Positions 2,573 to 59,518 of a stretch of 64,000 bases of DNA are shown piece by piece; within the stretch, counting starts at the first letter, position 1, and each line of letters begins with the position of its first letter. The notes beneath the pieces are model-generated. The model worked only from the letters and a program-made list of their open reading frames with translations, did no database searches and had not been told where the DNA came from. The translations under genes were made by a program, and so were the position numbers. The stretch covers positions 1 through 64,000 of the forward strand of contig CALFPJ010000022.1 in the NCBI GenBank assembly GCA_937919655.1, given 5' to 3'. Source of the stretch: an uncultured Gemmatimonadales bacterium (GTDB lineage Bacteria; Gemmatimonadota; Gemmatimonadetes; Longimicrobiales; Gaopeijiaceae).

Positions 2573-3862
2573 TCACTCGGCCCGGAGCACCGACAGGTCC
2601 GTCCCCGCCAGATTTTGGAAGGCACGCAGCCCAAACTCGGGAAGCGTCGCAATGAGGTGGTCGAAGATGTCCGCCTGAAGTGCCTCGTACTTTCCCCAGT
2701 CCGTGTCGTTGGAGAAACAATAAATCTCCAGGGGAAGGCCCTGCGGCCCGGGCTGTAGCTGCCGGACTAGGAGTGTCATCTCCTGATGGACCATCGGGTG
2801 TCGGCGCAGGTAGTTCAACACATACGCGCGGAACGAACCCACATTGGTGAGGCGGCGCTGCTCCGGAACCACGTCATCGCCCGCCACCTCTCTCGCGTTG
2901 GCCTTCGCCAACTCCTCTCGCTTGCCCCTGAAATATTCATGCAAAAACTCGAAGCCGGAGAGTCGTGCCACCTCTTCATCCGACAGGAAATGAATCGAGT
3001 TCATATCCAGGTAGATCATACGCTTGATGCGCCGGCCACCCGATTCGCTCATCCCTCTCCAGTTTTTGAATGATTCGGAGATGAATTTGTGCGTCGGAAT
3101 GGTGGAGATCGTCTTGTCCCAATTCTGGATCTGCACCGAATGCAGCGCGATATCGATGACGTCACCATCTGCATTGGCCTGAGACATCTCGACCCAGTCG
3201 CCGATCCGTATCATTTGGTTGGACATGATCTGGACGCTGGCGACGAGTGACAGGATCGTGTCTCGAAACACGAGCATGAGGACCGCGGTGAGGGCCCCGA
3301 GTCCCGAGAGAAAGAAGATCGGAGATTTTCCTGCCAGCGCCGAAATCACCACGATCCCCGCGGTCACATAGAGGAAAAGGCTCACGACCTGCAGATAACC
3401 CTTGATCGGACGGTTGCGAGCCTCCGCGTTGGTCTCGGTGTAGATGTCGTTGAAGGCGTTGAGTAGGCCACCGCCGGCCATGGCGAGGGAGATCATGACC
3501 CACGCGACGGAGACGCGCCGTACGAGCACCGCCCCTGTCAGCGCGAGCGCGTCCCAGCCCGCTGTGGCGACGTCTGCCGGGGGAACGTCAGCGAGCCATT
3601 CGGGACTGACTGCGAGCGCCCCAGCGATTCCCGCGTACGTGACGAGCGCGGGGGCGATGTTGGCGAGCCGGTGAAATACTCGCCGTTCAATGATGCGGTC
3701 ATCCCAGGTGACGGCGGTCTTGCTGGCGACCCGATTGATGAGCGCAAGAAAGATGCGCCGGACCACGACGTTGGCGGCCCACGCGAGGATGGCGAGGGTG
3801 GCAAGTCCAATGATCGCCCGGAGCCACTCGTTCGCAGCGATGTTCGACAGCAGGTCCTGCAT
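2573..3862 (-). CDS. MscS-family mechanosensitive ion channel
   Basis: This 429-residue inner-membrane protein has four to five hydrophobic segments in its N-terminal half. The MscS pore helix region follows (about 190-230, GLGALTAVLMLVFRDTILS), then the soluble beta domain marker IGDWVEM. The C-terminal part resembles the YbdG/YnaI group of larger MscS homologues rather than the 286-residue E. coli MscS. The expected role is to open under membrane tension and release solutes during hypo-osmotic shock. Its ATG at 3862 precedes a 101-base gap to the next gene, so it probably has its own promoter. Confidence 0.85.
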   Translation of the reverse strand: MQDLLSNIAANEWLRAIIGLATLAILAWAANVVVRRIFLALINRVASKTAVTWDDRIIERRVFHRLANIAPALVTYAGIAGALAVSPEWLADVPPADVATAGWDALALTGAVLVRRVSVAWVMISLAMAGGGLLNAFNDIYTETNAEARNRPIKGYLQVVSLFLYVTAGIVVISALAGKSPIFFLSGLGALTAVLMLVFRDTILSLVASVQIMSNQMIRIGDWVEMSQANADGDVIDIALHSVQIQNWDKTISTIPTHKFISESFKNWRGMSESGGRRIKRMIYLDMNSIHFLSDEEVARLSGFEFLHEYFRGKREELAKANAREVAGDDVVPEQRRLTNVGSFRAYVLNYLRRHPMVHQEMTLLVRQLQPGPQGLPLEIYCFSNDTDWGKYEALQADIFDHLIATLPEFGLRAFQNLAGTDLSVLRAE

Positions 3863-29209: not shown

Positions 29210-29303
29210 CGGGAACGTGTGGGAATCGAACCCACCTACCCGGGTTCTAGCCGGGCTGCACAGTTTTGAAGACCGCCGGAGACACCAGTCCCCCTCCGCC
29301 CCC
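29210..29303 (-). tRNA. selC: tRNA-Sec (anticodon UCA)
   Basis: Read on the minus strand, the 94-base gene folds as a selenocysteine tRNA. It has a six-pair D stem with a four-base loop (GGGGAC TGGT GTCTCC), an anticodon stem GCGGT/ACTGT around the loop CTTCAAA with anticodon TCA, and a long variable arm pairing CCCGG with CCGGG. The T arm is GTGGG TTCGATT CCCAC. The acceptor pairs GGGGGCG with CGTTCCC, including two G-U pairs, and the eighth position is a G-A mismatch. CCA is not encoded. The long extra arm, four-base D loop and UCA anticodon exclude a suppressor or tRNA-Ser. selA, selB and selD are not in the window. Confidence 0.9.
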
Positions 29304-45006: not shown

Positions 45007-48000
45007 ATGGATTTCTCGAAGCTCGCGGGAATCGGCACTCGCTTCACTGTGGGGTTGGCGCTCGCCGCCGCCGTTCTGGCTGCCCTGCCCCAGGCGGGCA
45101 GTGCCCAGTTCGGCCGGAACAAGGTCCAGTTCGACGAATTCAATTTTGAAATCCTCAGGACCGACCATTTCGACATCCACTACTATCCGGAAGAGTCCGA
45201 AGCGGTCATGGACGCCGCCCGAATGGCGGAGCGGTGGTACGAGCGGTTCGCGCGTGCGTTCCAACACGAATTCGAGCAGTCCAAGCCGATCATTTTTTAC
45301 GCAGATCACCCTGACTTCCAGCAGACCAACACGTTGTCCGGATCCATTGGTGAGGGAACCGGCGGTGTCACGGAGTCATTGAAGAACCGCGTCATCATGC
45401 CGTTCACCGGCTCCTATTGGGACAATGACCACGTTCTGGGGCATGAGTTGGTCCACGCGTTCCAGTACAACATCGCGCAGTCCCGGCGGGGTGGTGGCCT
45501 GCAAGGGCTGGTTACGTTGCCGCTCTGGCTGATTGAAGGAATGGCCGAGTATATGTCGGTCGGTCGCGATGACCCACTCACGGCTATGTGGATTCGAGAC
45601 GCGATTCGCCGCGACGAGTTGCCGACGATCAAGCAGTTGACGCGGGACACCAAGTTCTTCCCCTACCGGTTCGGGCAAGCCCTGTGGGCCTACATCGGCG
45701 GCACGTATGGAGACGACGCGGTCGTCCAGGTATACAGCCGTGCGCTCCGGGTCGGATTCGAGGGCGCGATCAACTCAGTCTTGGGCCTCTCGACCGATAC
45801 GCTCTCAGTCCGTTGGAAAGAGAAGGTCGCCGAGGAGTATCTGCCCCTCATGGAAGGCCGCGATGCTCCTGGGGATCAAGGCACACTCATTTTGGCCCCC
45901 AGCACCGGCTCAGGTAGCGTCAACATCTCCCCTTCAATCAGTCCTGATGGGCGCTACGTCGCGTTCCTCTCGGAGAGAGACCTCTTCTCTGTGGACCTCT
46001 ACATGGCAGAGGTCGCGACCGGTCGAGTGGTTAGAAAGCTGTCCAGCGCCGACTCCGACCCCCACATCGAGGCGTTGCGCTACATCGACTCGTCGGGCAC
46101 ATGGTCACCGGACTCAAAGCTGTTCGCCTATGTGGTCACAGCCGACGGCGACAACCAGCTCGTCATCACGGCAACGGACAACGGTCAGGTTGAGCGAAGA
46201 ATCCCCTTCGACGCGATCGGGGCCGCGAGTAACCCTTCGTGGTCTCCGGACGGTCGGTCCATCGCCTTCTCCGGGTCAGTCGGAGGTATCAGCGACATTT
46301 TCGTTTACGACCTGGATACGGACGAGACCATCCAGCTGACGGACGACAAATTCGCGGACCTCCAGCCCACCTGGTCTCCGGATGGCTCCACGATCGCTTT
46401 TACGAGCGACCGTGGCCCTGAGACCAATTTTGAACGTCTCAGCTACAGCGCTTTCCAGCTTTCCCTGCTCGACGTGGCGACCGGCCAAGTCCGCGTCGTC
46501 CCTGTGTTCGGCAACGTCAAGCATATCAACCCCGTCTATGGCGGTGACGGTCAGCGTATCTATTTCATCTCCGATCAGGACGGCTTCAGCGACGTCTACG
46601 AGTTGAGCTTCCAGAACGGAGACGTGCGCCGGGTCACGAACGTCGCGACCGGTGTGAGTGGGCATACGTATATCTCCCCTGCGATGTCGGTATCGCCCAC
46701 CGGGCAGATGGCGTACACCGTGTTCGACGAGCTTGAGTTCCACATCTACACCAAACAGGTCGACGGTAGCGGACAACTGGTTGCCGTCGCGGACAACGCG
46801 CGCGATCAGCCTGGCCGTAAGCTGGTCCCGGCAAACCCAGATGGCTTCAGCCGAATCGCGACCTACCTCGCCGATGCGGAGACGGGTCTGCTCTCCTCTA
46901 CGACGTACACCGAAGAGGACGCCGAGGAATATTCGTCCGATCTGTCGTTGGACTTCGTTGGGCAGCCTTCAATCGGCGTCGGTACCGACAGCTACGGCAA
47001 CTACGTGGGTGGCGGTGCGTCCGCCTACTTCAGCGACATGCTCGGCGAGAAGATCCTCGGCATCTCGGCTCAGGCTCAGGGCACCTTCAAGGACATCGGC
47101 GGCCAGGTCTTTTACGCAGACCTATCAAATCGGTGGAATTGGGGCGTCAGCGGCGGTCGGATTCCCTATCTCCTCGGGTTCTATGACTTCGGTGCTGACC
47201 CGATTCTGGATGATGGGGGCGAGCCGATCATTGATATCGACGGGAATCCACTCGTGCGCCCCTACACGGGGCTGGCGCGCTACCGAATCTTCATCAACTC
47301 TGCGGCAGGTCAGGTGTCGTATCCGTTCTCATCGACGCAGCGGTTCGAAGTCTCGCTCGGCATGACCCGATACAGTTACGACATCGAGCTGGACAAGTTC
47401 TACATGGACGACTTCGGGCGAGTCGTCGATTTCGACCGCCAGGGGCAGGACGACCTGTGCACGACCCCTGGTGGCCGATTGTGCTCGCCGGACCCGCTCA
47501 ACATGGCTCAGGTCTCAGCCGCATTGGTCGGGGATAATTCGTCCTTCGGATTCGTCTCGCCCGTGCGCGGTGGGCGATACCGCTTCGAAGTCGAGCAAAC
47601 GACGGGCACGGTCGACTTCACTACGATCATCGCCGATTGGCGCCGGTACTACAGCCCCGCGAAGAACCTGACCGTGGGTGTCCGGGGCATGCACTACGGT
47701 CGCTACGGGCTCAGCGAAGTCGAGAACGCGGCAGACGGATTCGGGTTGCTACGGCCTCTATTCCTCGGGTACGAGACTTTCATCCGAGGATACGCATTCG
47801 AGTCGTTCACCGCCGACGAGTGTGGCGTCAACACGGGCAATGGGTGCCCAACGTTCGACCGTCTTTTCGGTCACCAGATCGCGGTCGCGAACTTCGAATT
47901 CCGAGTCCCCTTCATCGGAGTCGAGCAGTACGGAATTCTCGACTTCCCGTTCCTCCCCACTGAACTCGTGCTTTTCGCTGACGCTGGCCTGGCGTGGGAC

Positions 48001-48186
48001 TCCCAGAATTCTCCGACGCTCGAGTGGAGTCGCTCCGGTTCGGAGCGGGTGCCAGTCGTCTCGACCGGCGCCTCCGCCCGATTCAACGTCCTCGGCTTCA
48101 TGATCATGGAAGTGTATTACGCCTACCCCTGGCAGCGTCCAGACAAGGGATGGCATTGGGGGTTCAACCTGGCGCCGGGCTGGTAA
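45007..48186 (+). CDS. Metalloprotease plus TolB-like propeller plus outer-membrane barrel, one chain
   Basis: This 1059-residue exported protein has three parts. After the signal peptide (1-34), residues about 40-280 form a peptidase-MA-like gluzincin with HELVH at 146-150 and the third-ligand Glu in WLIEGMAEY (177-181). Residues about 290-620 are PD40/WD40-like beta-propeller repeats (ISPDGRYVAFLSERD, WSPDGRSIAFSGS). From about 640 to the end is a BamA/TamA-like barrel that closes with WGFNLAPGW. A ribosome site AGAGGCGG precedes the ATG. It is probably anchored in the outer membrane with the protease outside or in the periplasm. The fusion is known in related phyla; the substrate is not known. 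Confidence 0.85.
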   Translation: MDFSKLAGIGTRFTVGLALAAAVLAALPQAGSAQFGRNKVQFDEFNFEILRTDHFDIHYYPEESEAVMDAARMAERWYERFARAFQHEFEQSKPIIFYADHPDFQQTNTLSGSIGEGTGGVTESLKNRVIMPFTGSYWDNDHVLGHELVHAFQYNIAQSRRGGGLQGLVTLPLWLIEGMAEYMSVGRDDPLTAMWIRDAIRRDELPTIKQLTRDTKFFPYRFGQALWAYIGGTYGDDAVVQVYSRALRVGFEGAINSVLGLSTDTLSVRWKEKVAEEYLPLMEGRDAPGDQGTLILAPSTGSGSVNISPSISPDGRYVAFLSERDLFSVDLYMAEVATGRVVRKLSSADSDPHIEALRYIDSSGTWSPDSKLFAYVVTADGDNQLVITATDNGQVERRIPFDAIGAASNPSWSPDGRSIAFSGSVGGISDIFVYDLDTDETIQLTDDKFADLQPTWSPDGSTIAFTSDRGPETNFERLSYSAFQLSLLDVATGQVRVVPVFGNVKHINPVYGGDGQRIYFISDQDGFSDVYELSFQNGDVRRVTNVATGVSGHTYISPAMSVSPTGQMAYTVFDELEFHIYTKQVDGSGQLVAVADNARDQPGRKLVPANPDGFSRIATYLADAETGLLSSTTYTEEDAEEYSSDLSLDFVGQPSIGVGTDSYGNYVGGGASAYFSDMLGEKILGISAQAQGTFKDIGGQVFYADLSNRWNWGVSGGRIPYLLGFYDFGADPILDDGGEPIIDIDGNPLVRPYTGLARYRIFINSAAGQVSYPFSSTQRFEVSLGMTRYSYDIELDKFYMDDFGRVVDFDRQGQDDLCTTPGGRLCSPDPLNMAQVSAALVGDNSSFGFVSPVRGGRYRFEVEQTTGTVDFTTIIADWRRYYSPAKNLTVGVRGMHYGRYGLSEVENAADGFGLLRPLFLGYETFIRGYAFESFTADECGVNTGNGCPTFDRLFGHQIAVANFEFRVPFIGVEQYGILDFPFLPTELVLFADAGLAWDSQNSPTLEWSRSGSERVPVVSTGASARFNVLGFMIMEVYYAYPWQRPDKGWHWGFNLAPGW

Positions 48187-48215
48187 GCTGATGTGAAACG
48201 CGCTGAGTGGCGCTC

Positions 48216-48251
48216 AACCCCGGGGTGGCCTTCGTGTCGCCCCGGGGTTTT
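48216..48251 (+). terminator. Terminator after the metalloprotease-barrel gene
   Basis: AACCCCGGGG and CCCCGGGGTTTT form a strong GC-rich stem with a short loop, followed by T-rich bases, 30 bases after the stop codon. It is a classic rho-independent shape. Confidence 0.85.
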
Positions 48252-48287
48252 GCGTTTTGGGCGCTGGCGCGGGTCCCTCGGCTACCT

Positions 48288-48388
48288 CGTGCCCCGCCTC
48301 CGGAAGGTGGCTCTCCGGGGGCCAGGGCTTGTGAGGATTTCGAAGCGGGCAGCGGCCCCCTGCGCGATCCTTCCTCCGACGGGGCACG
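48288..48388 (+). repeat. Hairpin element D (family 2), downstream of the barrel gene
   Basis: Three nested stems are visible: P1 CGTGCCCCG (48288-48296) with CGGGGCACG (48380-48388), P2 GGAAGG (48302-48307) with CCTTCC (48369-48374), and P3 GGGGGCC (48317-48323) with GGCCCCC (48354-48360). The junction strings TGGCTCTCCG and CTGCGCGAT recur in element E, where all stems have different sequences that still pair. It lies on the same strand as the gene before it, after that gene's terminator. Confidence 0.7.
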
Positions 48389-48495
48389 GGCGCGCCGACG
48401 GACCGGACAGTGGCCAGATGTGGAGATCCCGGGCTACCGTGGCCCTGCGGGGTGCTCCACGCTGCGCGGGAGCATAGGCAGGGGCGCCCGCCGCC

Positions 48496-48692
48496 GGTGG
48501 TACTTTGGGGGCACGACGGGGAGGAGATCCCGACCGGTTGTGCGTACATGCAACGGTTGGAGGTTCCCGGCAGGCTCACTCGACCCCAAGTACCGCCGCC
48601 GGCGGTACTTGGGGAACCGGCGGGTAGAAATCCCGACCGGTCGCGCGTACCTGCAAGGGATCGCAGTTCTGCGGACAGGCTCACTCGACCCC
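48496..48692 (+). repeat. Two imperfect tandem copies of a ~95 base element (family 3)
   Basis: Copy 1 (48496-48597) and copy 2 (48601-48692) share GATCCCGACCGGT near the middle and CAGGCTCACTCGACCCC at the end, and differ by small indels. Copy 1 is bounded by pairing ends, GGTGGTACTTTGGGG and CCCCAAGTACCGCC. The start of copy 2 (GGCGGTACTTGGGG) can pair with the end of copy 1. No coding frame is plausible. Confidence 0.7.
48584..48614. repeat. Perfect 15+1+15 base inverted repeat
   Basis: CCCCAAGTACCGCCG, one base, then its exact reverse complement. It arises at the join between the two tandem copies: the end of the first and the start of the second are complementary. It could form a cruciform or a hairpin in RNA. 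Confidence 0.85.
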
Positions 48693-48707
48693 CGTGCCCC
48701 ACCTGAG

Positions 48708-48839
48708 CGGGGTGCGCGTGGCGACGCACCCCCGGAGGGCGCATCGCGCAGCGGCCCCTAACCCGGCAACCGTACCCAATAAGCACTAGGCCGCGGAGAG
48801 CCAGCGCCCCGGAGGGGGTGCGTCGCCACGCGCACCCCG
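48708..48839 (-). repeat. Hairpin element E (family 2), downstream of mlaD
   Basis: Outer stem P1 is a perfect 26-base inverted repeat (48708-48733 with 48814-48839). Inside it, on the minus strand, P2 is GGGCGC with GCGCCC (48804-48809 with 48737-48742) and P3 is GCGGCC with GGCCGC (48789-48794 with 48751-48756). The conserved junctions TGGCTCTCCG and CTGCGCGAT match element D, and so does CCTCCG on both sides of P2. It begins 8 bases after the mlaD stop and has the same strand as mlaD. Confidence 0.8.
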
Positions 48840-48846
48840 AATCACC

Positions 48847-49806
48847 CTAGAAGATCGATATGTTGATGTACTTCTTGGGGTTGTCCTGTAGGTCTTGCAG
48901 TAGCGCCGCAAACCGCTCTGAAGAGAGGTTCAGGTTGTCGTAGAGTGCCTCGTCATAGATCAGGCGCCCGAGCGTTCCTTCTCCGCGCTCCACCGACCCC
49001 AGAATTGACTGTAGGCTCGCTAAAGTCGCGTCGAGGGCTACACCCGTGTCGGTCAGGGTGGCCATGATGGAGTCGGCTCGCGATATGGCGCTCGCGATAT
49101 CTGGGCCGGCCGCAGCAGCGCCCTCTAGGCCTTCTGCGGATCTCTTGAGAGACGCCGTCAGGTCGCTCATCGCGCCGCGCTGCTCGGCGATGACACCCGA
49201 CATCTGGTTCAGGAGTCCTTCGAGTTCGCGCGCGCTCCCCTGCACCGAGCCGATGGCCTCAGTGCTGAGGAGCGTCTCGACCTGCGTGAGGACAGTGCCC
49301 ATCTGGCCGCTCAAGTCGTCCATCGAGCCGAGAATACCTGCTGCATTCCCGCCAATCCCGGAGATCGTGTCTCCGGCTTCGTGGTAGGTATCCCCCAAAA
49401 CTGGCATGATCTCGACCGTACGACCACCAAACATGCCAACCGCGCCCAAGCGCGCGGTCGACCCTACCGGCACCTCCCATTCGCCCTCGATTTCCAGCGT
49501 CATCTCGACAAGCCCGTCCGCTCGCATCCGGAACTTATTGAGGCGGCCCACGTTGACGCCCCGCATCTGAATCGGGTCGTTACGTCGCACGCCCCCCGCA
49601 TCGTCCACGACGGTGTGAAGCATATACCGGCCACGCATCCCCGCAGGGGAGGTGAGCATAAACAGCACGACGATGAAGGAAAGCAATCCGCCGATCACAA
49701 AGATCCCCAGGCGGGCTTCGCGTCCATGGCGCTGGAGTGGCACGTGGTCCGCAAGTTCCTGCTCGGAGGGCGTGCGGCGCGTGCCGCTGGGGGTCGCATC
49801 AGTCAT
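48847..49806 (-). CDS. mlaD: MlaD-family MCE-domain protein
   Basis: The 319-residue product has one N-terminal transmembrane helix (IFVIGGLLSFIVVLFML), then the MCE domain (DDAGGVRRNDPIQMRGVNVGRL, GSTARLGAVGMFGGRTVEIMP), then a long helical region (about 150-300). It forms the periplasmic ring that binds lipid for the MlaFED importer or exporter in retrograde phospholipid transport. It overlaps mlaF by 8 bases. mlaB, mlaC and mlaA are not in the window. Confidence 0.9.
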   Translation of the reverse strand: MTDATPSGTRRTPSEQELADHVPLQRHGREARLGIFVIGGLLSFIVVLFMLTSPAGMRGRYMLHTVVDDAGGVRRNDPIQMRGVNVGRLNKFRMRADGLVEMTLEIEGEWEVPVGSTARLGAVGMFGGRTVEIMPVLGDTYHEAGDTISGIGGNAAGILGSMDDLSGQMGTVLTQVETLLSTEAIGSVQGSARELEGLLNQMSGVIAEQRGAMSDLTASLKRSAEGLEGAAAAGPDIASAISRADSIMATLTDTGVALDATLASLQSILGSVERGEGTLGRLIYDEALYDNLNLSSERFAALLQDLQDNPKKYINISIF

Positions 49807-51646: not shown

Positions 51647-52942
51647 ATGAACAGAGCCTTGAGAACGAGCATATTCCCATTCGCCGTTGGACTGATCGTG
51701 CTCGCCAGTCCCGCAGTTGCACAAGAGCCCGACTATTCGGCTGAGGTCGCCGCGCTTATGGCGAACCCCGCAGTAGTCGAGGCCCTGGACCTCATCGACC
51801 AGCGAGACGCGCGCACGATGGCGGACCTGCTGGAGCTGACGGAGATCCCGGCTCCACCGTTTGGTGAACAGGCCCGCGGCATTCGGTTTCTGCGCATGCT
51901 TGGAGAGTTGGGCGTCGACTCCGCTTGGGTGGACGAGGTCGGGAACGTACTGGGTCTTCGCCGAGGCACGGGATCTGACGAGGTGGTCGCGGTCACAGGG
52001 CACCTCGACACGGTCTTTCCCGAAGGGACGGATGTGACAGTGAGGCAACGCGGAGACACACTGTTCGCCCCTGGAATCGGGGACGACACCCGAGGGCTGG
52101 CTACCGTTTTGGCCATACTCCGCACGCTCAACGAAGCCGACATTCGGACCAATGCTAACCTCCTCTTCATCGCCACTGTGGGCGAGGAAGGGTTGGGGGA
52201 TCTGCGAGGGGTGAAGCATCTCTTCCGTCCTGGCGGACCGAGGATCGACGCCTTCATCTCGATCGACGGCACGGGTCACACGAGCCTTACGCATCAGGGC
52301 CTCGGCTCACACCGATACCGCGTGACGATCCGCGGCCCAGGAGGTCATTCCTGGGGCGACTTCGGGTTCGCCAATCCTGCCCACGCCCTCGGCCGCGCGA
52401 TAGACAACTTCGACCTCTCCGCTGACGCCATCACGCGTTCTGGCGCCGCGACGAGCTACAACGTGGGTCGTCTCGGCGGCGGCACGTCCGTGAATTCGAT
52501 CCCGTTCGAGGCCTGGATGGAGGTCGACATGCGCTCGGCCAGCCCCCAGAGCCTGGCAACGATCGACGATGTATTTCGGCGGGCGATGACCCGCGCAGTC
52601 GACGAAGCCAACGCTCAGCGCCGCGATGGTGCCCTGCTCTCTCTAGAGCTGGAGCTCATAGGGAATCGGCCCTCAGGTGAAATCCCAGAGACAGATCCTT
52701 TCGTGCAACGAGCGCTCGCGGCGGGCCGTGCACTCGGCATCGAGTCAGAGCTTGAACGTGGCTCGACCGATTCGAACATCCCTATCTCGATGGGCATTCC
52801 GGCCATCACGATCGGCGGCGGCGGCGTGGCGGGTGCCGCACACTCTCCCGGCGAGTGGTTCATCAATCGCAACGGTGCACTCGGCATCAAGCGCGCACTC
52901 ATGATCACGCTGGCTCAGGTCGGCACTGCCATCGCGAGTTGA
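51647..52942 (+). CDS. M20/M25-family secreted metallopeptidase
   Basis: The 431-residue exported protein (signal FPFAVGLIVLASPAVAQ) has M20 metal ligands His in VTGHLDTVFP, Asp in GIGDDTRGLATVL, and the Glu pair in TVGEEGLGD. A dimerisation-like insert spans about 215-325 (SLTHQGLGSHRYRVTIRGPGG). The expected activity is dipeptide or N-acyl amino acid hydrolysis outside the cytoplasm. The ATG at 51647 is chosen so that the signal peptide is intact; an earlier ATG at 51608 adds 13 charged residues. The downstream SDR is 2 bases away. Confidence 0.85.
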   Translation: MNRALRTSIFPFAVGLIVLASPAVAQEPDYSAEVAALMANPAVVEALDLIDQRDARTMADLLELTEIPAPPFGEQARGIRFLRMLGELGVDSAWVDEVGNVLGLRRGTGSDEVVAVTGHLDTVFPEGTDVTVRQRGDTLFAPGIGDDTRGLATVLAILRTLNEADIRTNANLLFIATVGEEGLGDLRGVKHLFRPGGPRIDAFISIDGTGHTSLTHQGLGSHRYRVTIRGPGGHSWGDFGFANPAHALGRAIDNFDLSADAITRSGAATSYNVGRLGGGTSVNSIPFEAWMEVDMRSASPQSLATIDDVFRRAMTRAVDEANAQRRDGALLSLELELIGNRPSGEIPETDPFVQRALAAGRALGIESELERGSTDSNIPISMGIPAITIGGGGVAGAAHSPGEWFINRNGALGIKRALMITLAQVGTAIAS

Positions 52943-52944
52943 CC

Positions 52945-53700
52945 ATGGAACCAGGACCCCTCACAGGCCGGGTGGCGATCGTCACCGGCGCCTCCGCCGG
53001 CATCGGCGAGGCCATCGCCATCACCCTGGCTGAAGCGGGGGCATCGGTCGTCCTGGCTGCCCGCCGGATCGATCGGCTACAAGCCACGGTGAGTGCGCTT
53101 GAGGAGGCGGGCTTCGAGGCAGTAGCAGTGCAAGCAGATGTGAGTCGTATAGAGGATGTGCAGGCCGTCGCCGCAGCAGCGACCACCGAGTTCGGACGCA
53201 TCGACATTCTTGTGAACAACGCAGGCACCATGTCGGTGTCTCCCATTGCAGACGCACGGGTGGACGACTGGAAGCTCATGGTGGATGTGAATCTGAACGG
53301 AGTGCTGCACGGCATCTCGGCAGTCCTGCCGACAATGCTGGCTCAGAACGGTGGCCACATCGTCAACATCGGCTCGGTTGCAGGTCGGCGTCCATTTCCG
53401 GGAGGCTCAGTGTACGCCGCGACGAAGTTCGCCGTCCGCGCCCTCTCGTGGGGTCTCCACCTCGAACTTGGCGCCAAGCACGGGATTCGCGTCACCGACA
53501 TCCAGCCCGGCTTCGTGTCCACCGAGTTACTCGACACGGTGGCCAACGCCGACATGCGCGAGGGGTGGATGGAGAGTTGGGAGGGGAAACGACCGCTTCA
53601 GCCCAACGACATCGCTCAGGCGGTACTCTTCGCGGTCACTGCGCCGGCGCATGTGTCGGTCAGCGAGATCCTCGTCCGCCCGGTGGACCAAGCCACGTAG
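52945..53700 (+). CDS. SDR-family oxidoreductase
   Basis: The classical SDR of 251 residues has TGASAGIGEAIA, NNAG in ILVNNAGTMS, Ser in NIGSVAGRR, and YAATKFAVRAL for the catalytic Tyr and Lys. VVLAARRIDRL suggests an NADP preference through its Arg pair. It follows the M20 gene by 2 bases, so the two are probably cotranscribed. The substrate is unknown. Repeat element A starts 15 bases after its stop. Confidence 0.87.
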   Translation: MEPGPLTGRVAIVTGASAGIGEAIAITLAEAGASVVLAARRIDRLQATVSALEEAGFEAVAVQADVSRIEDVQAVAAAATTEFGRIDILVNNAGTMSVSPIADARVDDWKLMVDVNLNGVLHGISAVLPTMLAQNGGHIVNIGSVAGRRPFPGGSVYAATKFAVRALSWGLHLELGAKHGIRVTDIQPGFVSTELLDTVANADMREGWMESWEGKRPLQPNDIAQAVLFAVTAPAHVSVSEILVRPVDQAT

Positions 53701-53714
53701 TTGGTTTTGGGACG

Positions 53715-53883
53715 CCCGGGTTGGAGACGGCTGCCGGTCTCGGGGCCGCTCGCCCTCGTTTTGGGAGGTCTGGGTTCGGGGGCTCGCTAAACGACGCACC
53801 TCTTCTTTTTATTTCGCGTCCTCTTTTTTACTCCGCTTCGGCGCGCCGATTGCCCCGTGACCGGCAGCCGTCTCCACCCCGGG
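53715..53883 (+). repeat. Hairpin element A (family 1), downstream of the SDR gene
   Basis: The outer stem pairs 53715-53746 with 53852-53883, 30 of 32 positions, built around GGAGACGGCTGCCGGTC. Inside, CGCTCGCCC and the 20-base core GGGGGCTCGCTAAACGACGC (53778-53797) are shared with elements B and C, as is CGGCGCGCCGATTG (with element B). The outer stem sequence is unlike the other copies. It stands on the same strand as the SDR gene. Confidence 0.8.
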
Positions 53884-54211: not shown

Positions 54212-54382
54212 GGTGAGCGCGACGAAGGGTGTGGTTCCCGGGGTATCGACGCGGTGCGAGCGGAAGTACTAAGAGGATGCGAGCAAACCGGAAGCACCGC
54301 GTCGTTAAGCGAGCCCCCGAACGAAGAAACCCCCACCGACGGGCGAGCGAACCCGAGAACCACACCCTTGGTCGTGCTCACC
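54212..54382 (-). repeat. Hairpin element C (family 1), downstream of the M14 gene
   Basis: The arms 54212-54242 and 54352-54382 pair over 31 positions with three mismatches (AGGGTGTGGTTC against its complement). On the minus strand the core GGGGGCTCGCTTAACGACGC (54299-54318) differs from elements A and B at one base. A perfect inner stem, CGACGCGGTGC with GCACCGCGTCG, follows. It is on the strand of the M14 gene, just beyond its terminator. Confidence 0.8.
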
Positions 54383-54456: not shown

Positions 54457-57180
54457 CTACGAGATCGGTCGCTGCTTAGCCGCCCCGTAGTAGATCCCGT
54501 TGAAGAGGAACCCAAACGTCCCGTGCGGTTGTGCCCGGAAGGTGATCTTCGGGCCGAAGATGAACAGCTTGCCCTGCCCGTAGTCGGCCTCAATCGCGCC
54601 TACGCCGTTCTCCAGGTACTTCTCTCCCCAAGACCATCCACTCTTCAGCGGACTGGCTGTGTCGTACCAGCCCACACGGCGAACGCCTTGGGCTGCTGCC
54701 CCGGCCCCCAGCGTGAACGTCGGGCTGTGGCTGAAGAGTACGTCCACGCGATCCTTGAATCCGTGCGTTAGGGGACTCGTGTGATCGACCTTCATGTCGA
54801 GCACCGAGCCCGGCGTGAAGTACTGCTCACGGGTCAGCGGAACCCCGTTTTCCATGAGGTGGTTGGTCACCGGCAGCCCCGCGTGCTGGGCCAGGCTCGC
54901 CGATGAGCCGATCGCGATGGCGGCGCCGCCTGCACGCACGTAATCGAGAATGTTAGAAACACTGCCATCCACACTCATCGAGCCCACCCGACCACGGTAC
55001 TCGGCCGGCAGGTCGGAGAGGTCCGGGCCACTGCCGCCGCGCCCACCGCGGCCACCCTGACCTCCCTCGGCCACCGCCTCGGGAATCGCGCCGTCATCGA
55101 ACACCAAGACGTCGTACTGAGAAAGGTCACCGTCAAAGTCCGGCGGATACAGCACGTCGAAGTCGAACTCGAAGTCTTCAAGGATCATGCGTGTCCAGCC
55201 GGACGGCATGGACCCGCCGTATTGGTCCCAGAGCCCGATCTTCACCGGCTCAAGTTCCATCGCGTTGCCCGTCGGCCGACTCGCGACCCCCATGAACCTG
55301 AGGCCCTTCTCAGACGCCAGTCGATCGACGGTCGCTCTATCTGTCTCGAGGTAGAACGCACCCTCTTCGAAGTCCTGTCCACCGGCACTGACAGCGTCCG
55401 TATACCAATAAGCGCTCCCGCCGCCGGCGAGCACTCGGTTCACCGCAATGAACGCGTCGTTGATGTGGTCGACCAAGTATCCGCTGGCGTTGTCCGCCCC
55501 GGCCACGATGCCCGTCGGCGGTGCCGACAGAATGTCATCGATCAGCTCGAAGGGTCCATCGAAGCCGTCCATGACCCGATCGAATTCCACACCCATCTGC
55601 CAAGCCAGGGTCCACCCCGTGTTGTCGTACGGTGCCGTTGGGGGCGCTCCCGGATACGCAAAGTCATTGGGGTGATCCTGCTTCTCAAACATGTCGAGCA
55701 CGTGCGGCCTGAAGGCCTGAGCAGTGCTCACGACGTAGGAGCCCGCGTCATACGACTTGCCAGCCACGGTGAAGGCGGAGGTCGCGCGATGCACATCGAC
55801 TCCGTTGTACAGCAGCGTATTCACGAACTTTGTTGCCGTGAGAAAGTCGCGCTGGATTGAAGGGATTATGAAGCCGCGAGGATCTCGGTCGGCGGGCGCC
55901 CGTAACACCATCTCCCAGTCGGCCCGAGTCCCGCGTCCAACTGTCGCCTCAGCGGCGTCGATCTCACTGGGGAACGTTGTCCACGAGTCGGCAGTGCCGC
56001 GCTCGATCGAGTTGGTGCCCATCTGCCAGATATTGAACAGCAAATGATCTGAATTCCTCGACGCGAAGTCGAGAACGGCCCAGTTAGCGGTCTGCGAGTA
56101 TTCGATCGACTGCCGGAAATGCCAGATGCCCGGCTCGACCGGCAGCGGGATATCTGCTCGCGAAATTTGGTTTCGAGGGATGAACGGAATTTCGACCGGC
56201 GTCGGGTTCCCGATGGTCTCCGTCAAGAGCCCGATCATGTTCTTGAAGTAGGGCGTAGTCCTCAGCCCACCGTTCCACCAAGTCGAGTAGGACGCGCCCG
56301 AGCGCATGGTTGTGCCCCCCTTCCCCTCCTCGACGAAGCGGTCGTGCATGGCCGAACCCACCCGGTCCAGCCCCGTGATGATAAGCGGGTCGAGGTAGTG
56401 ATTCGGCGGATCCCGGAACGGCGGAGCGAACATCACCGTTCCAGCTGGGCCGGTCTGGTGATGATTGTACACGATTTGCGGATACCACGTCCGGTACATC
56501 GACGTGTTGATGTTTTGGGTCTCGGCCAGCGCAGCCATGTAGAAGTCACGGTTGTTATCGTGACCTGCATACTTGTTATAGAGGACGGGCACGCCGCTTG
56601 TAGTACGCTCCATCGGATCGTCGTGGCGCATATACCAGTTGGCCACCAATGCGTGACCATCAGGGTTCGCGTGCGTCGCCAAGATGATCACGTCATCCAG
56701 AATTCGTAGCGTCTCTGCATCGGTGTAGTCGTTCAGGCGATACACCAATTCGGCGAGCTGCTGCGCACCGAGGACCTCGGTCGCGTGCAGTCCGCCATCA
56801 ATCCAAATGATCGCCTTGCCCTCGTCAGCCAACTCGCGCGCTTCGGTCTCGCTCAGCCCTTCGGCCTTCGCCAAGCGCCGCGCGATGTCGCGATACCGGT
56901 CTAGATTGCGATGATTCTCCGGCGACGTGATGACCGCCTGGATGTGCGGACGACCTTCCTCAGTGAAGCCGATCGTGTCCAAAATCATCCGATCGGACTC
57001 GTTCGCGAGCTTCACCCAGTACTGATGGAGCTCTTCATAGTTGATCAGTTCATAGTCAGCCCCGATCTCGTGACCGAATTCCTCCTCCGGCGTGGTAACC
57101 CGGTGCTGCGCCTGCAGGGGGGAGGCAAAAGCCACGACCGCGAGGGCAAAGAATACTGTCCAGCGAACACAAGTTTTCAT
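54457..57180 (-). CDS. M14-family zinc carboxypeptidase, large secreted form
   Basis: The 907-residue exported protein (signal FFALAVVAFASPLQAQ) has the M14 zinc site HATE in WIDGGLHATEVLG and the third ligand His in YNHHQTGPAGT. The substrate-site NNRD is in YAGHDNNRDFYM, and the catalytic Glu in LLTETIGNP. About 450 residues after the catalytic domain form a separate beta-rich tail, with a Gly-rich loop (GQGGRGGRGGSGP). Peptidases of this size are typical of Gemmatimonadota. The start ATG at 57180 is picked by the signal peptide. Confidence 0.88.
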   Translation of the reverse strand: MKTCVRWTVFFALAVVAFASPLQAQHRVTTPEEEFGHEIGADYELINYEELHQYWVKLANESDRMILDTIGFTEEGRPHIQAVITSPENHRNLDRYRDIARRLAKAEGLSETEARELADEGKAIIWIDGGLHATEVLGAQQLAELVYRLNDYTDAETLRILDDVIILATHANPDGHALVANWYMRHDDPMERTTSGVPVLYNKYAGHDNNRDFYMAALAETQNINTSMYRTWYPQIVYNHHQTGPAGTVMFAPPFRDPPNHYLDPLIITGLDRVGSAMHDRFVEEGKGGTTMRSGASYSTWWNGGLRTTPYFKNMIGLLTETIGNPTPVEIPFIPRNQISRADIPLPVEPGIWHFRQSIEYSQTANWAVLDFASRNSDHLLFNIWQMGTNSIERGTADSWTTFPSEIDAAEATVGRGTRADWEMVLRAPADRDPRGFIIPSIQRDFLTATKFVNTLLYNGVDVHRATSAFTVAGKSYDAGSYVVSTAQAFRPHVLDMFEKQDHPNDFAYPGAPPTAPYDNTGWTLAWQMGVEFDRVMDGFDGPFELIDDILSAPPTGIVAGADNASGYLVDHINDAFIAVNRVLAGGGSAYWYTDAVSAGGQDFEEGAFYLETDRATVDRLASEKGLRFMGVASRPTGNAMELEPVKIGLWDQYGGSMPSGWTRMILEDFEFDFDVLYPPDFDGDLSQYDVLVFDDGAIPEAVAEGGQGGRGGRGGSGPDLSDLPAEYRGRVGSMSVDGSVSNILDYVRAGGAAIAIGSSASLAQHAGLPVTNHLMENGVPLTREQYFTPGSVLDMKVDHTSPLTHGFKDRVDVLFSHSPTFTLGAGAAAQGVRRVGWYDTASPLKSGWSWGEKYLENGVGAIEADYGQGKLFIFGPKITFRAQPHGTFGFLFNGIYYGAAKQRPIS

Positions 57181-57313
57181 GCCGGTCACTTTTCTCCAAA
57201 AGTTGATCATCCTACCCAGATGACTGATTCTATTGTTGCTCTTCCACCGAAACAAAGTACGGCTTCACTCCCGTTCCCGCCCTACCTTCCCGGCCTCAGC
57301 GCGAAAGACTCCG

Positions 57314-59347
57314 ATGGCTATTGTTAGACACTTTTCGACCGCCCTTCTGTTGAGTGCAGGCCTCGTGTTCGCCGGCGGCGCGAACGCACAGCAGGGTCCC
57401 GTTCGTCTGCTCGCTGACCCCGCGACTGCAGTTCTCGAGGTCGGCACGTCCATGACGCTGGTTGTGCGCGCTGTGGACACCGCGGGTCAGTCGGTCGAAC
57501 TAGACCTCCGTTTCGCGGCTCCCATGTCGGTTCTCCGCTACCGCGACGGGACGCTCCAAGCGTTCTCGGCCGGAGACTTCGAGATCATCGCCACGGCGGT
57601 GGTGGCCGCCGGAGGAGTTGCCCCGGAACCACTACGGATCCCGGTAACGATCACCTGGCCTGCCATCGACCGCGTGGACCTGAATGCTTCGGGTGAGCGA
57701 CTTTTCGTGGGTACGATGATCGCGCATGACCCCGCCGTCTTCCACCGCGATGGGACCCGGCGACCGGAACCCTCGATCACATGGACCTCATCCGAGCCCG
57801 ACGTCGCCACGGTCAACCGATACGGAGACGTCACGGCCTTCATGACCGGCGGGGTGACAATCACCGCTTCCGTGGAAGGTGAGATCGACGTCCCAATCAT
57901 GTTCGAGGTCGCCACCTTCCCGGCCACCGAATTGAGTATCCAGGGCGGAGTCGACGCGGCACGCACCGGCGACGTGGTCCACTTCTCCGCCGCCGCCCGA
58001 GGGCCTGCGGGTGAGCTCGGAGACCTGCCGATCACCTGGGCCTACACCTTCGTGCCAGACGATTCCATTCGATCGCCTGGTTCAGCAGCGATCGTTCACG
58101 ATGGGGCGTTCGTGGCGGAAGTGCCCGGCCGCTACACCGTCCTCGCAATTTCTGGCCCACTGACGGCCCGTAAGAGCGTCCTCGTGCATGGCCGTGATGC
58201 GGTCCAACAGATCGAACTCGAGGGACGCGGCTCCGTGTCGAACGTCCACACCTCCGACCTGTGGGTCTTCGAAGGGGTGGACCGGCGCGACTACGCGATC
58301 ACCGGGACATGGTCCGCCTCTGGCTGGGCATATTTCTGGGACGTTACGGACCCGACCCACATCACCAAGACCGACTCGATTCAGGTGGACGCACGCACGG
58401 TCAACGACGTAAAGGTTTCGCCGAACGGGCGGTACGCCGCGCTTTCTCGAGAGGGAGCTTCGAACCGTAGCAACGGCGTGGTGATTCTCGACATGGCCGA
58501 CCCGGCGCATCCTCGGGTGGCTTCGACGTTCGAATCGCACGGAGTCACTGGCGGCGTACACAACATGTTCGCCACTGATGACTACCTGTTTGCGCTCGCC
58601 AACGGCGATAAGTACGTCATCATCGACGTCAGAGACCCCTACGACCCCAAGTACGTCAGCGAATACAACCACCCAAACAGCCGCGTGCACGACGTCTGGG
58701 TGCGCGACGGCATCGCTTACTCATCTGAATGGCAGACTGGCGTGGTGGTCGTGGACGTGGGCAATGGAAAGTGGGGAGGCACGATCGAACATCCGGTATT
58801 TGTCACGGCTGTCCCCTACCCCGTTGGCGCGACACACGCGGCTTTTCCATACGAGCAAGTGGCGACCGGGAAGTTCTACCTCTTCCTGGGAGACGAAATT
58901 TCTGGCGGGCGCGGTGCGGCCTGGGAAGGCCCCGGAGCAGACAACCAGCGCTACAACCCGGCGACCGGCGAAGGGGGCGTTCAAGGTCGGATGAGTGGTT
59001 ACCTGCACGTCATTGACTTCACCGACCCTGAAAATCCGAAGGATGTCGCACGCTACGAGGTCCCGGAAGCCGGAGCCCACAACCTGTGGGTAGAGGACGA
59101 CGTGCTCTACCAGGCTTACTACAAGGGCGGGCTGAGGGTCGTCGACGTCTCGGGTGAGCTCATGGGCGACTTAGGCGCACAGGGCCGCGAGATCGCCGTT
59201 TACAAGCCTCAGGATCCGGGTGGCTTCTTGGCGAACCAAGTGAGCGTGTGGGGGGGGCAGCCGTATAAGGGGCACGTGTTCTTTTCGGACATGAACTCCG
59301 GACTGTGGGCGGCCAAGGTCATGCCAAAAGGGAGCCCGATCAGTTAG
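57314..59347 (+). CDS. Secreted protein with Ig-like domains and LVIVD repeats
   Basis: The exported protein has 677 residues (signal STALLLSAGLVFAGGANA). Two to three bacterial Ig-like (BIG2-type) segments fill residues 30-300 (VELDLRFAAP, TWTSSEPDVATVNRYGDVT). From about 320, LVIVD-type propeller repeats follow (SNGVVILDMADPAHPRVAST, KYVIIDVRDPYDPKYV, HVIDFTDPENPKDVARY). It is probably surface-exposed with binding function; no enzyme motif is seen. It is divergent from the M14 gene over 133 bases, and hairpin element B begins 4 bases after the stop. Confidence 0.75.
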   Translation: MAIVRHFSTALLLSAGLVFAGGANAQQGPVRLLADPATAVLEVGTSMTLVVRAVDTAGQSVELDLRFAAPMSVLRYRDGTLQAFSAGDFEIIATAVVAAGGVAPEPLRIPVTITWPAIDRVDLNASGERLFVGTMIAHDPAVFHRDGTRRPEPSITWTSSEPDVATVNRYGDVTAFMTGGVTITASVEGEIDVPIMFEVATFPATELSIQGGVDAARTGDVVHFSAAARGPAGELGDLPITWAYTFVPDDSIRSPGSAAIVHDGAFVAEVPGRYTVLAISGPLTARKSVLVHGRDAVQQIELEGRGSVSNVHTSDLWVFEGVDRRDYAITGTWSASGWAYFWDVTDPTHITKTDSIQVDARTVNDVKVSPNGRYAALSREGASNRSNGVVILDMADPAHPRVASTFESHGVTGGVHNMFATDDYLFALANGDKYVIIDVRDPYDPKYVSEYNHPNSRVHDVWVRDGIAYSSEWQTGVVVVDVGNGKWGGTIEHPVFVTAVPYPVGATHAAFPYEQVATGKFYLFLGDEISGGRGAAWEGPGADNQRYNPATGEGGVQGRMSGYLHVIDFTDPENPKDVARYEVPEAGAHNLWVEDDVLYQAYYKGGLRVVDVSGELMGDLGAQGREIAVYKPQDPGGFLANQVSVWGGQPYKGHVFFSDMNSGLWAAKVMPKGSPIS

Positions 59348-59351
59348 GGAT

Positions 59352-59518
59352 GGTGGCGTCGATTTGGCTTGGTGCCCCGGGGCCGCTCGCCCAACTGCGG
59401 GGGGTCTGGGGGCGGGGGCTCGCTAAACGACGCGCCGAGTCTTGTTTTTCGGGGAGGGGCTACTCACTCCTCGTCGGCGCGCCGATTGCCCGGGGCACCA
59501 AGCCAAATCGGCGCCACC
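59352..59518 (+). repeat. Hairpin element B (family 1), downstream of the LVIVD gene
   Basis: Arms 59352-59381 and 59489-59518 pair at all but one of 30 positions, and that one is a G-U pair. The stem sequence (CGATTTGGCTTGGTGCCC) shares nothing with those of elements A and C. The core GGGGGCTCGCTAAACGACGC is at 59414-59433, and CGGCGCGCCGATTG is at the inner edge, as in A. It has the same strand as the LVIVD gene. Confidence 0.8.

Follow-up and report, generated by a model that had tools for sequence, protein, structure and literature searches.

Two long hairpin elements, D and E, lie between a pair of convergent genes in a 64,000-nucleotide stretch of DNA from an uncultured Gemmatimonadales bacterium (the whole stretch is referred to below as the window), and the locus raises the question of whether they are structured RNAs, mobile DNA or a product of base composition. 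A first-pass annotation, made from the letters of the window, had placed D at 48288-48388 on the plus strand and E at 48708-48839 on the minus strand. The coordinates, strands, fixed strings and stems that it gave were rechecked in the sequence and are correct.

Organisation of the locus

The 660-bp gap 48187-48846 is intergenic and is flanked by a convergent PD40/Omp85-domain gene and an MlaD-domain gene (Table 1). A homologue of mlaD is present in 110 of 117 family genomes. The gap contains, in order, the terminator of the Omp85 gene, D (+), elements F and G (+) and E (-). No promoter-like site was found in 48150-48900. In the sister species G035 both genes are kept, with 71-75% identity, and so is the terminator hairpin, while D-E is absent and the intergenic distance is only about 85 bp. 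The elements are dispensable, since this species has no D-E.

F and G (48497-48703) represent a third kind of element. They have CAGGCTCACTCGACCCC and ATCCCGACCGGT in common and were found only in the source genome. No sequence kinship between D/E, F/G and the A, B and C elements described below was evident by eye.

Table 1. Genes, hairpin elements and stems of the window
Feature	Position	Strand	Remarks
PD40/Omp85-domain outer-membrane protein gene	45007-48186	+	5' of D; stop codon 101 nt before D inner arm
Intrinsic terminator hairpin of Omp85 gene, ordinary	48216-48249	+	Precedes D; terminator scan
Element D with full outer arms	48272-48404	+	P1 arms 48272-48296 and 48380-48404; inverted repeat
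D, stem P2	48302-48307	+	GGAAGG, partner CCTTCC (48369-48374); compensatory vs GGGCGC/GCGCCC of other copies
D, internal loop	48308-48316	+	TGGCTCTCC, opposite strand TGCGCGAT (48361-48368); identical in D and E, altered in other genera
D, stem P3	48317-48323	+	GGGGGCC, partner GGCCCCC (48354-48360)
Element F, third kind, between D and E	48497-48598	+	Direct repeat; seen in source genome only
Element G, tandem relative of F	48602-48703	+	vs F: 73% identical over 59 nt, 100% over 17 nt
Element E, complete	48708-48839	-	P1 arms 48814-48839 and 48708-48733, 26 bp perfect (100% complementary)
E, stem P2	48804-48809	-	GGGCGC, partner GCGCCC (48737-48742)
E, internal loop	48794-48803	-	TGGCTCTCCG, opposite strand CTGCGCGAT (48743-48751)
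E, stem P3	48789-48794	-	GCGGCC, partner GGCCGC (48751-48756)
MlaD-domain protein gene (mlaD)	48847-49806	-	5' of E; stop codon 7 nt from E
Element A, three-way junction	53722-53876	+	21 nt 3' of SDR gene 52855-53700
Element B	54225-54369	-	87 nt 3' of M14-peptidase gene 54457-57255 (-)
Element C	59360-59510	+	12 nt 3' of gene 57233-59347; missing at G035 locus

Structure of elements D and E

Both elements share the plan of a family, in which P1 (about 16-26 nt of free sequence) is followed by a short internal loop CUCC/UCCG and a near-constant P2, GGGCGC/GCGCCC; beyond P2 the core consists of a semi-conserved internal loop and a covarying P3. The outer arms of D were present as annotated and proved longer, with 20 of 25 positions paired and the innermost 9 bp perfect. 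P2 does differ between D and E with its pairing kept; the sequence in E is the family norm and that in D a derived change. The internal loops, which had been described as fixed, are identical in D and E and less fixed in the family, G111 having AGAGCATCC where D and E have TGGCTCTCC.

The fold of E is far more stable than those of its shuffles (DNA z -7.6, RNA z -3.6). The gain of D alone is modest (RNA z -1.7, 13 of 200 shuffles as good; DNA z -0.8), so D taken by itself leaves room for GC richness as the cause.

Relatives in other genomes and covariation

The covariance model built from D and E (R2) found no further copy in the source genome, and none that was certain in 40 family genomes. 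The search widened to 394 genomes gave matches in G110, G111 and G104, and E-type copies in G109 and G101 were recovered by reading the mlaD loci of the family. The G101 copy has a low score (20 bits) yet carries TCCGGGCGCTGG...AATGCGCCCTCCGG. The annotation had looked to such a search for more copies in the genome; instead, six relatives turned up outside it, in five genomes from genera g36 and g37 of the same family, two of them in G111. All six sit at the same locus, between the same Omp85/PD40 and mlaD convergent genes, this assignment being made in G109 and G101 from the mlaD side, as the Omp85 gene end is unrecognised in both. The flanks in G110, G111 and G104 match on both sides, one by the gene end GGCTGGTAR and the other by the mlaD end. 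The place just 3' of the Omp85 gene is taken by D-type copies (G110, G111, G104), that just 3' of mlaD by E-type copies (G111, G109, G101), all in sense orientation. The family has these two places in genera g1, g36 and g37; in every carrier genome one or two copies were found, at this one locus only.

In the alignment of eight sequences, two-sided changes are seen in 11 of 19 pairs (mean of the shuffles 6.2, with 2 of 500 reaching 11) and the covariation score is 0.314 against 0.145 for shuffles, none of 500 being as high. Paired cells amount to 86%, compared with 36-58% in slid controls. P3 is the weakest helix, at 76% of cells paired, in part owing to a register that shifts from copy to copy. 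D and E are homologous, and from genus to genus their shape is conserved although much of the sequence differs. The claim that compensatory change reflected selection on structure is borne out by these independent homologues and by a larger second family, and the covariation persists against shuffles once more copies are aligned. General GC richness, named in the annotation as what could undo the match, does not explain D and E, because homologues occupy the same locus in G110, G111, G104, G109 and G101.

The internal loop is alike within a genome (TGGCTCTCC in both G000 copies, AGAGCATCC in both G111 copies), which suggests concerted change or renewed duplication.

Several candidate relatives were rejected. 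R2 matches in G048, G070, G073, G052, G082, G288 and G033 were weak, and the two inspected (G288 and G033) had no conserved flanking strings. From 121 family genomes the exact D/E pattern recovered only D, E and two further matches that have no similarity in the part between the strings; from IMG/VR it recovered 12 matches, none of which was scored by the D/E model.

A second family of elements

A scan of the window for hairpins with arms of at least 12 nt and a spacer of 50-180 nt found four, namely E and the elements A, B and C; the three longest have arms of 18-26 nt. The same threshold gave 0-3 hairpins per control in 20 Markov controls. A, B and C have a core CGCTCGCC...GGGGCTCGCTNAACGACGC...GCGNCGATNNCCCC in common, which can be drawn as a three-way junction, and a long outer stem of unrelated sequence in each copy. 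Searches with models R1 and R3 found about 60 copies of this family, spread over 21 of the 121 family genomes and 10 of the 40 genera; a single genome has at most about 10. Two other families of the order, represented by 24 genomes, yielded one marginal R1 match (E 0.86) and no more. The core pattern, which was too strict, matched one Gemmatimonadetes contig (SZUA-1190) only among all GTDB genome contigs.

The second family also covaries. Among 19 sequences, 13 of 20 pairs changed on both sides (5.2 in shuffles) and 91% of cells are paired, compared with 31-46% in slid controls. P3 occurs as CGACGCGGC/GCCGCGTCG, CTTCGGGGC/GCCCCGAAG, CAACGGCGCA/TGCGCCGCTG (with one A-C mismatch) and CGATGCGGC/GCCGCATCG.

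The median alignment length of P1 is 27.5 nt (46 elements). The stem is nearly perfect and its sequences are mostly unrelated, while the core is kept. No relation is seen between the arms of different genera or of most copies in G109; only similar copies have arms in common. Such copies within a genome are alike in core and arms, over 132-154 nt at 89-90% (G051, G083) and over 165 nt at 84% (G088). These common arms indicate that the second family duplicates within genomes.

Two loci show further peculiarities of the arms. In L052 (G083:C216), three full or partial copies lie within 5 kb and one 5' arm is tandemly duplicated (3080-3102, 3113-3135). G109 has six second-family copies (L164-L169), most with arms of their own, about 20-35 nt long, and several of them have an inner CCCCTNCGGGG-like motif common to the arms.

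Position relative to genes

A same-strand upstream gene was found for 35 of the 39 second-family copies with a readable upstream gene, and where both neighbours are on one strand, 12 elements are sense and 3 antisense, these orientation counts being approximate since the simple gene caller missed some genes (e.g., 52855-53700). The distance from the upstream stop codon is mostly 3-130 nt. Both families combine a covarying secondary structure with a sense position just past a stop codon, the two features looked for in a 3'-UTR element. A common function of the host genes was considered and rejected: the upstream genes are unrelated (PilC, SDR, M14, PBP, adenosine deaminase, E2 subunit, NADH-G-like, M1, M20 and others).

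The 3' site of pilC is occupied by the second family in G000, G088, G084, G105 and G065; it is present in degraded form in G035, G079 and G085, and most other genomes have none. In a tree of the pilC-site cores, G000, G088 and G105 group together and G065 and G084 stand apart, so the occupancy is partly ancestral and perhaps partly a re-occupation. Between G000 and G035, three P1 positions have changed on both sides (GGGAACGCC/GCGTTCCC vs GGAGACCCT/GGGTCTCC).

The pilC loci (L101, which is G000:C96, L102-L130 and L154-L163) form a recurrent second-family site in several genera. The G000 pilC site (L101) carries an inverted pair, as is the case with A/B and D/E.

A proposed role as 3'-UTR elements

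The account to which we give about half of our confidence is that D and E are structured 3'-UTR RNA elements, in which P1 is a double-stranded processing or protection signal and the core is the specific part. The annotation had proposed a noncoding RNA, a structured 3' UTR or a mobile hairpin, and the structured 3' UTR fits best, the elements being sense, just past one gene and in matching places in three genera. Each closely follows a stop codon and reads in the same direction as the gene before it, and the Omp85-like and mlaD transcripts should therefore run into D and E. We infer transcription, an action as RNA and the involvement of a nuclease. Each element would fold in RNA into one long hairpin, with P1 acting, whatever its sequence, as double-stranded RNA some two helical turns long, which would be cut by RNase III or would block 3'-to-5' exonucleases. 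The element would in this way set the 3' end or the lifetime of the mRNA, and the core would give specificity. RNase III needs two helical turns of duplex, and this need would explain why the length and pairing of P1 are kept and its sequence is free.

The covariation at one locus over three genera, together with the pilC site in several genera, argues for the 3'-UTR reading. The second-family fold energies, which favour the sense strand, point the same way, as does the lack, by eye, of an ordinary terminator in several genomes with an element at the D/E locus. Against it, the arm mismatches show no G-U excess of the kind expected of selection on sense RNA, in D/E or in the second family, the fold energies favour neither strand in D/E, and the sister species G035 does without D-E. 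Palindrome (template-switch) correction in DNA could also produce compensatory pairs in the long outer arms. As D comes after a normal terminator, it may be transcribed in the source genome by read-through only.

More broadly, and more tentatively, the elements may represent a new bacterial 3'-UTR RNA class of at least two sequence families, which would replace the terminator, form or protect mRNA 3' ends and have been slowly copied to further gene ends in a Gemmatimonadota lineage. Two families with covariation, downstream and sense, occur at sites common to genera, in genomes whose other option is the ordinary terminator. Action as RNA would make them a testable case of a lineage that replaces or supplements termination with processed 3' ends. 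Action as DNA would make them a mobile palindrome whose arms are free to vary and whose core is not, contrary to the usual pattern. Either outcome would be new.

Alternative explanations

A non-autonomous mobile DNA palindrome of MITE-like type is the main rival explanation and a serious one, though less likely than the 3'-UTR reading. Its arms would be terminal inverted repeats or an extruded hairpin served by a transposase in trans, its copies would pile up past gene ends as the least harmful places, and pairing of the arms would be maintained by palindrome correction in DNA. The likeness of core and arms among second-family copies of G051, G083 and G088 agrees with this, as do the lack of C at the orthologous locus of G035, the length and long arms, which resemble those of Correia/NEMIS and ERIC (PMC2229807), and the sense-strand mismatches in second-family P1 (10 A-C vs 14 G-T), which favour neither strand. 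However, conservation across genera is found in the core and not in the arms, which is the opposite of transposase-recognised terminal repeats, and terminal inverted repeats conserved between copies, as in MITE-type elements, were not found. Dispersed copies in one genome number up to about 10 for the second family, which does duplicate as the mobile-hairpin proposal would have it, whereas D/E copies number one or two and remain at one locus. Sense orientation in most copies is also unexpected of blind insertion. No target-site duplication was seen by eye in the flanks, the nearest empty site (G035) being too diverged for exact ends, and no transposase domain was present among the flanking proteins scanned.

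That the elements are elaborate intrinsic terminators, which replace the ordinary terminator hairpin and stop transcription themselves, seems improbable. Many copies do follow the stop codon by 3-130 nt, and by eye many other genomes have an ordinary hairpin at the D/E locus. However, no U-tract was found after the 3' arm (T makes up 19% of the next 15 nt in 44 elements), and therefore neither the D/E nor the second-family elements are intrinsic terminators. The terminator scan called none at D or E, only the one before D, and a conserved core of about 80 nt would be superfluous for termination. A further candidate, insertion of the core into terminator loops, was disfavoured, as similar copies in one genome have the same arms and no U-tract.

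A functional RNA on the opposite strand, antisense or trans-acting and read towards the gene end, is more doubtful still. The sense-strand mismatches in D/E P1 (11 A-C vs 1 G-T) would be G-U pairs on the opposite strand, but the numbers are small, and the second-family arms have no such bias. For the second family the fold energies are better on the sense strand (mean -4.6 kcal/mol, p 0.01; controls -1.7; copies not independent), for D/E neither strand has the advantage, and the region 48150-48900 yielded no promoter-like site.

Chance pairing in GC-rich intergenic DNA, to which only the modest fold of D alone lends support, is refuted by the same-locus homologues with covariation and by the excess of long-armed hairpins in the window over the Markov controls.

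Comparison with known elements

Correia/NEMIS elements (CREE) of Neisseria are 100-160 bp long, with long inverted-repeat arms around a conserved core, and their transcripts are a substrate of RNase III and are cleaved or protected (PMC2229807; PMC2649163). The present elements are similar in size, long arms and conserved core. However, the arms of Correia/NEMIS elements are a common 24-bp terminal repeat with a target-site duplication, whereas the present arms are unrelated from genus to genus and no visible duplication accompanies them; the present elements are also set apart by few copies, conservation of the core and sense 3' placement. The ERIC/IRU (RU-1) elements of enterobacteria are about 127 bp long, intergenic and co-transcribed, with an orientation-dependent effect on the stability of upstream mRNA; they have 7-bp terminal repeats and a proposed RNase E site (PMC2229807). 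They have no long variable stem of the kind present here. On the simplest account, the cleavage or protection of Correia/NEMIS transcripts would be a precedent for P1, and ERIC a second one, for an orientation-dependent effect on mRNA.

REP, BIME and REPIN elements are hairpins past gene ends, sometimes in inverted pairs, and stabilise the upstream mRNA. REP/REPIN units are 20-40 bp long with a GTAG or CGTC tag, often in more than 100 copies (PMC3733652, PMC2817692). The present elements differ from them in unit size (100-160 bp), copy number (1-10 per genome) and a branched or multi-loop core.

Most described cis-acting bacterial mRNA motifs sit 5' of genes. Candidate structured RNA motifs from comparative genomics (e.g., PMC2864571) were likewise found by covariation and are intergenic and of unknown function; the present elements differ in lying 3' of genes and in having no match in Rfam 15. 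No description of such elements was found in open-access papers. At the gathering cut-off of Rfam 15 no element of the window was matched, and at permissive E-values the element loci gave only chance matches of miRNA/lncRNA type, in agreement with the initial remark that no such family was known. The elements form one new family, or two, within a known general kind, the structured intergenic elements. What is unusual in D/E and in the A, B and C family is the free stem set against a fixed core, and the sense 3' placement.

The only Rfam match in the window at the gathering cut-off was a selenocysteine tRNA gene (29211-29303, minus strand), on which Rfam RF01852 and ARAGORN agree.
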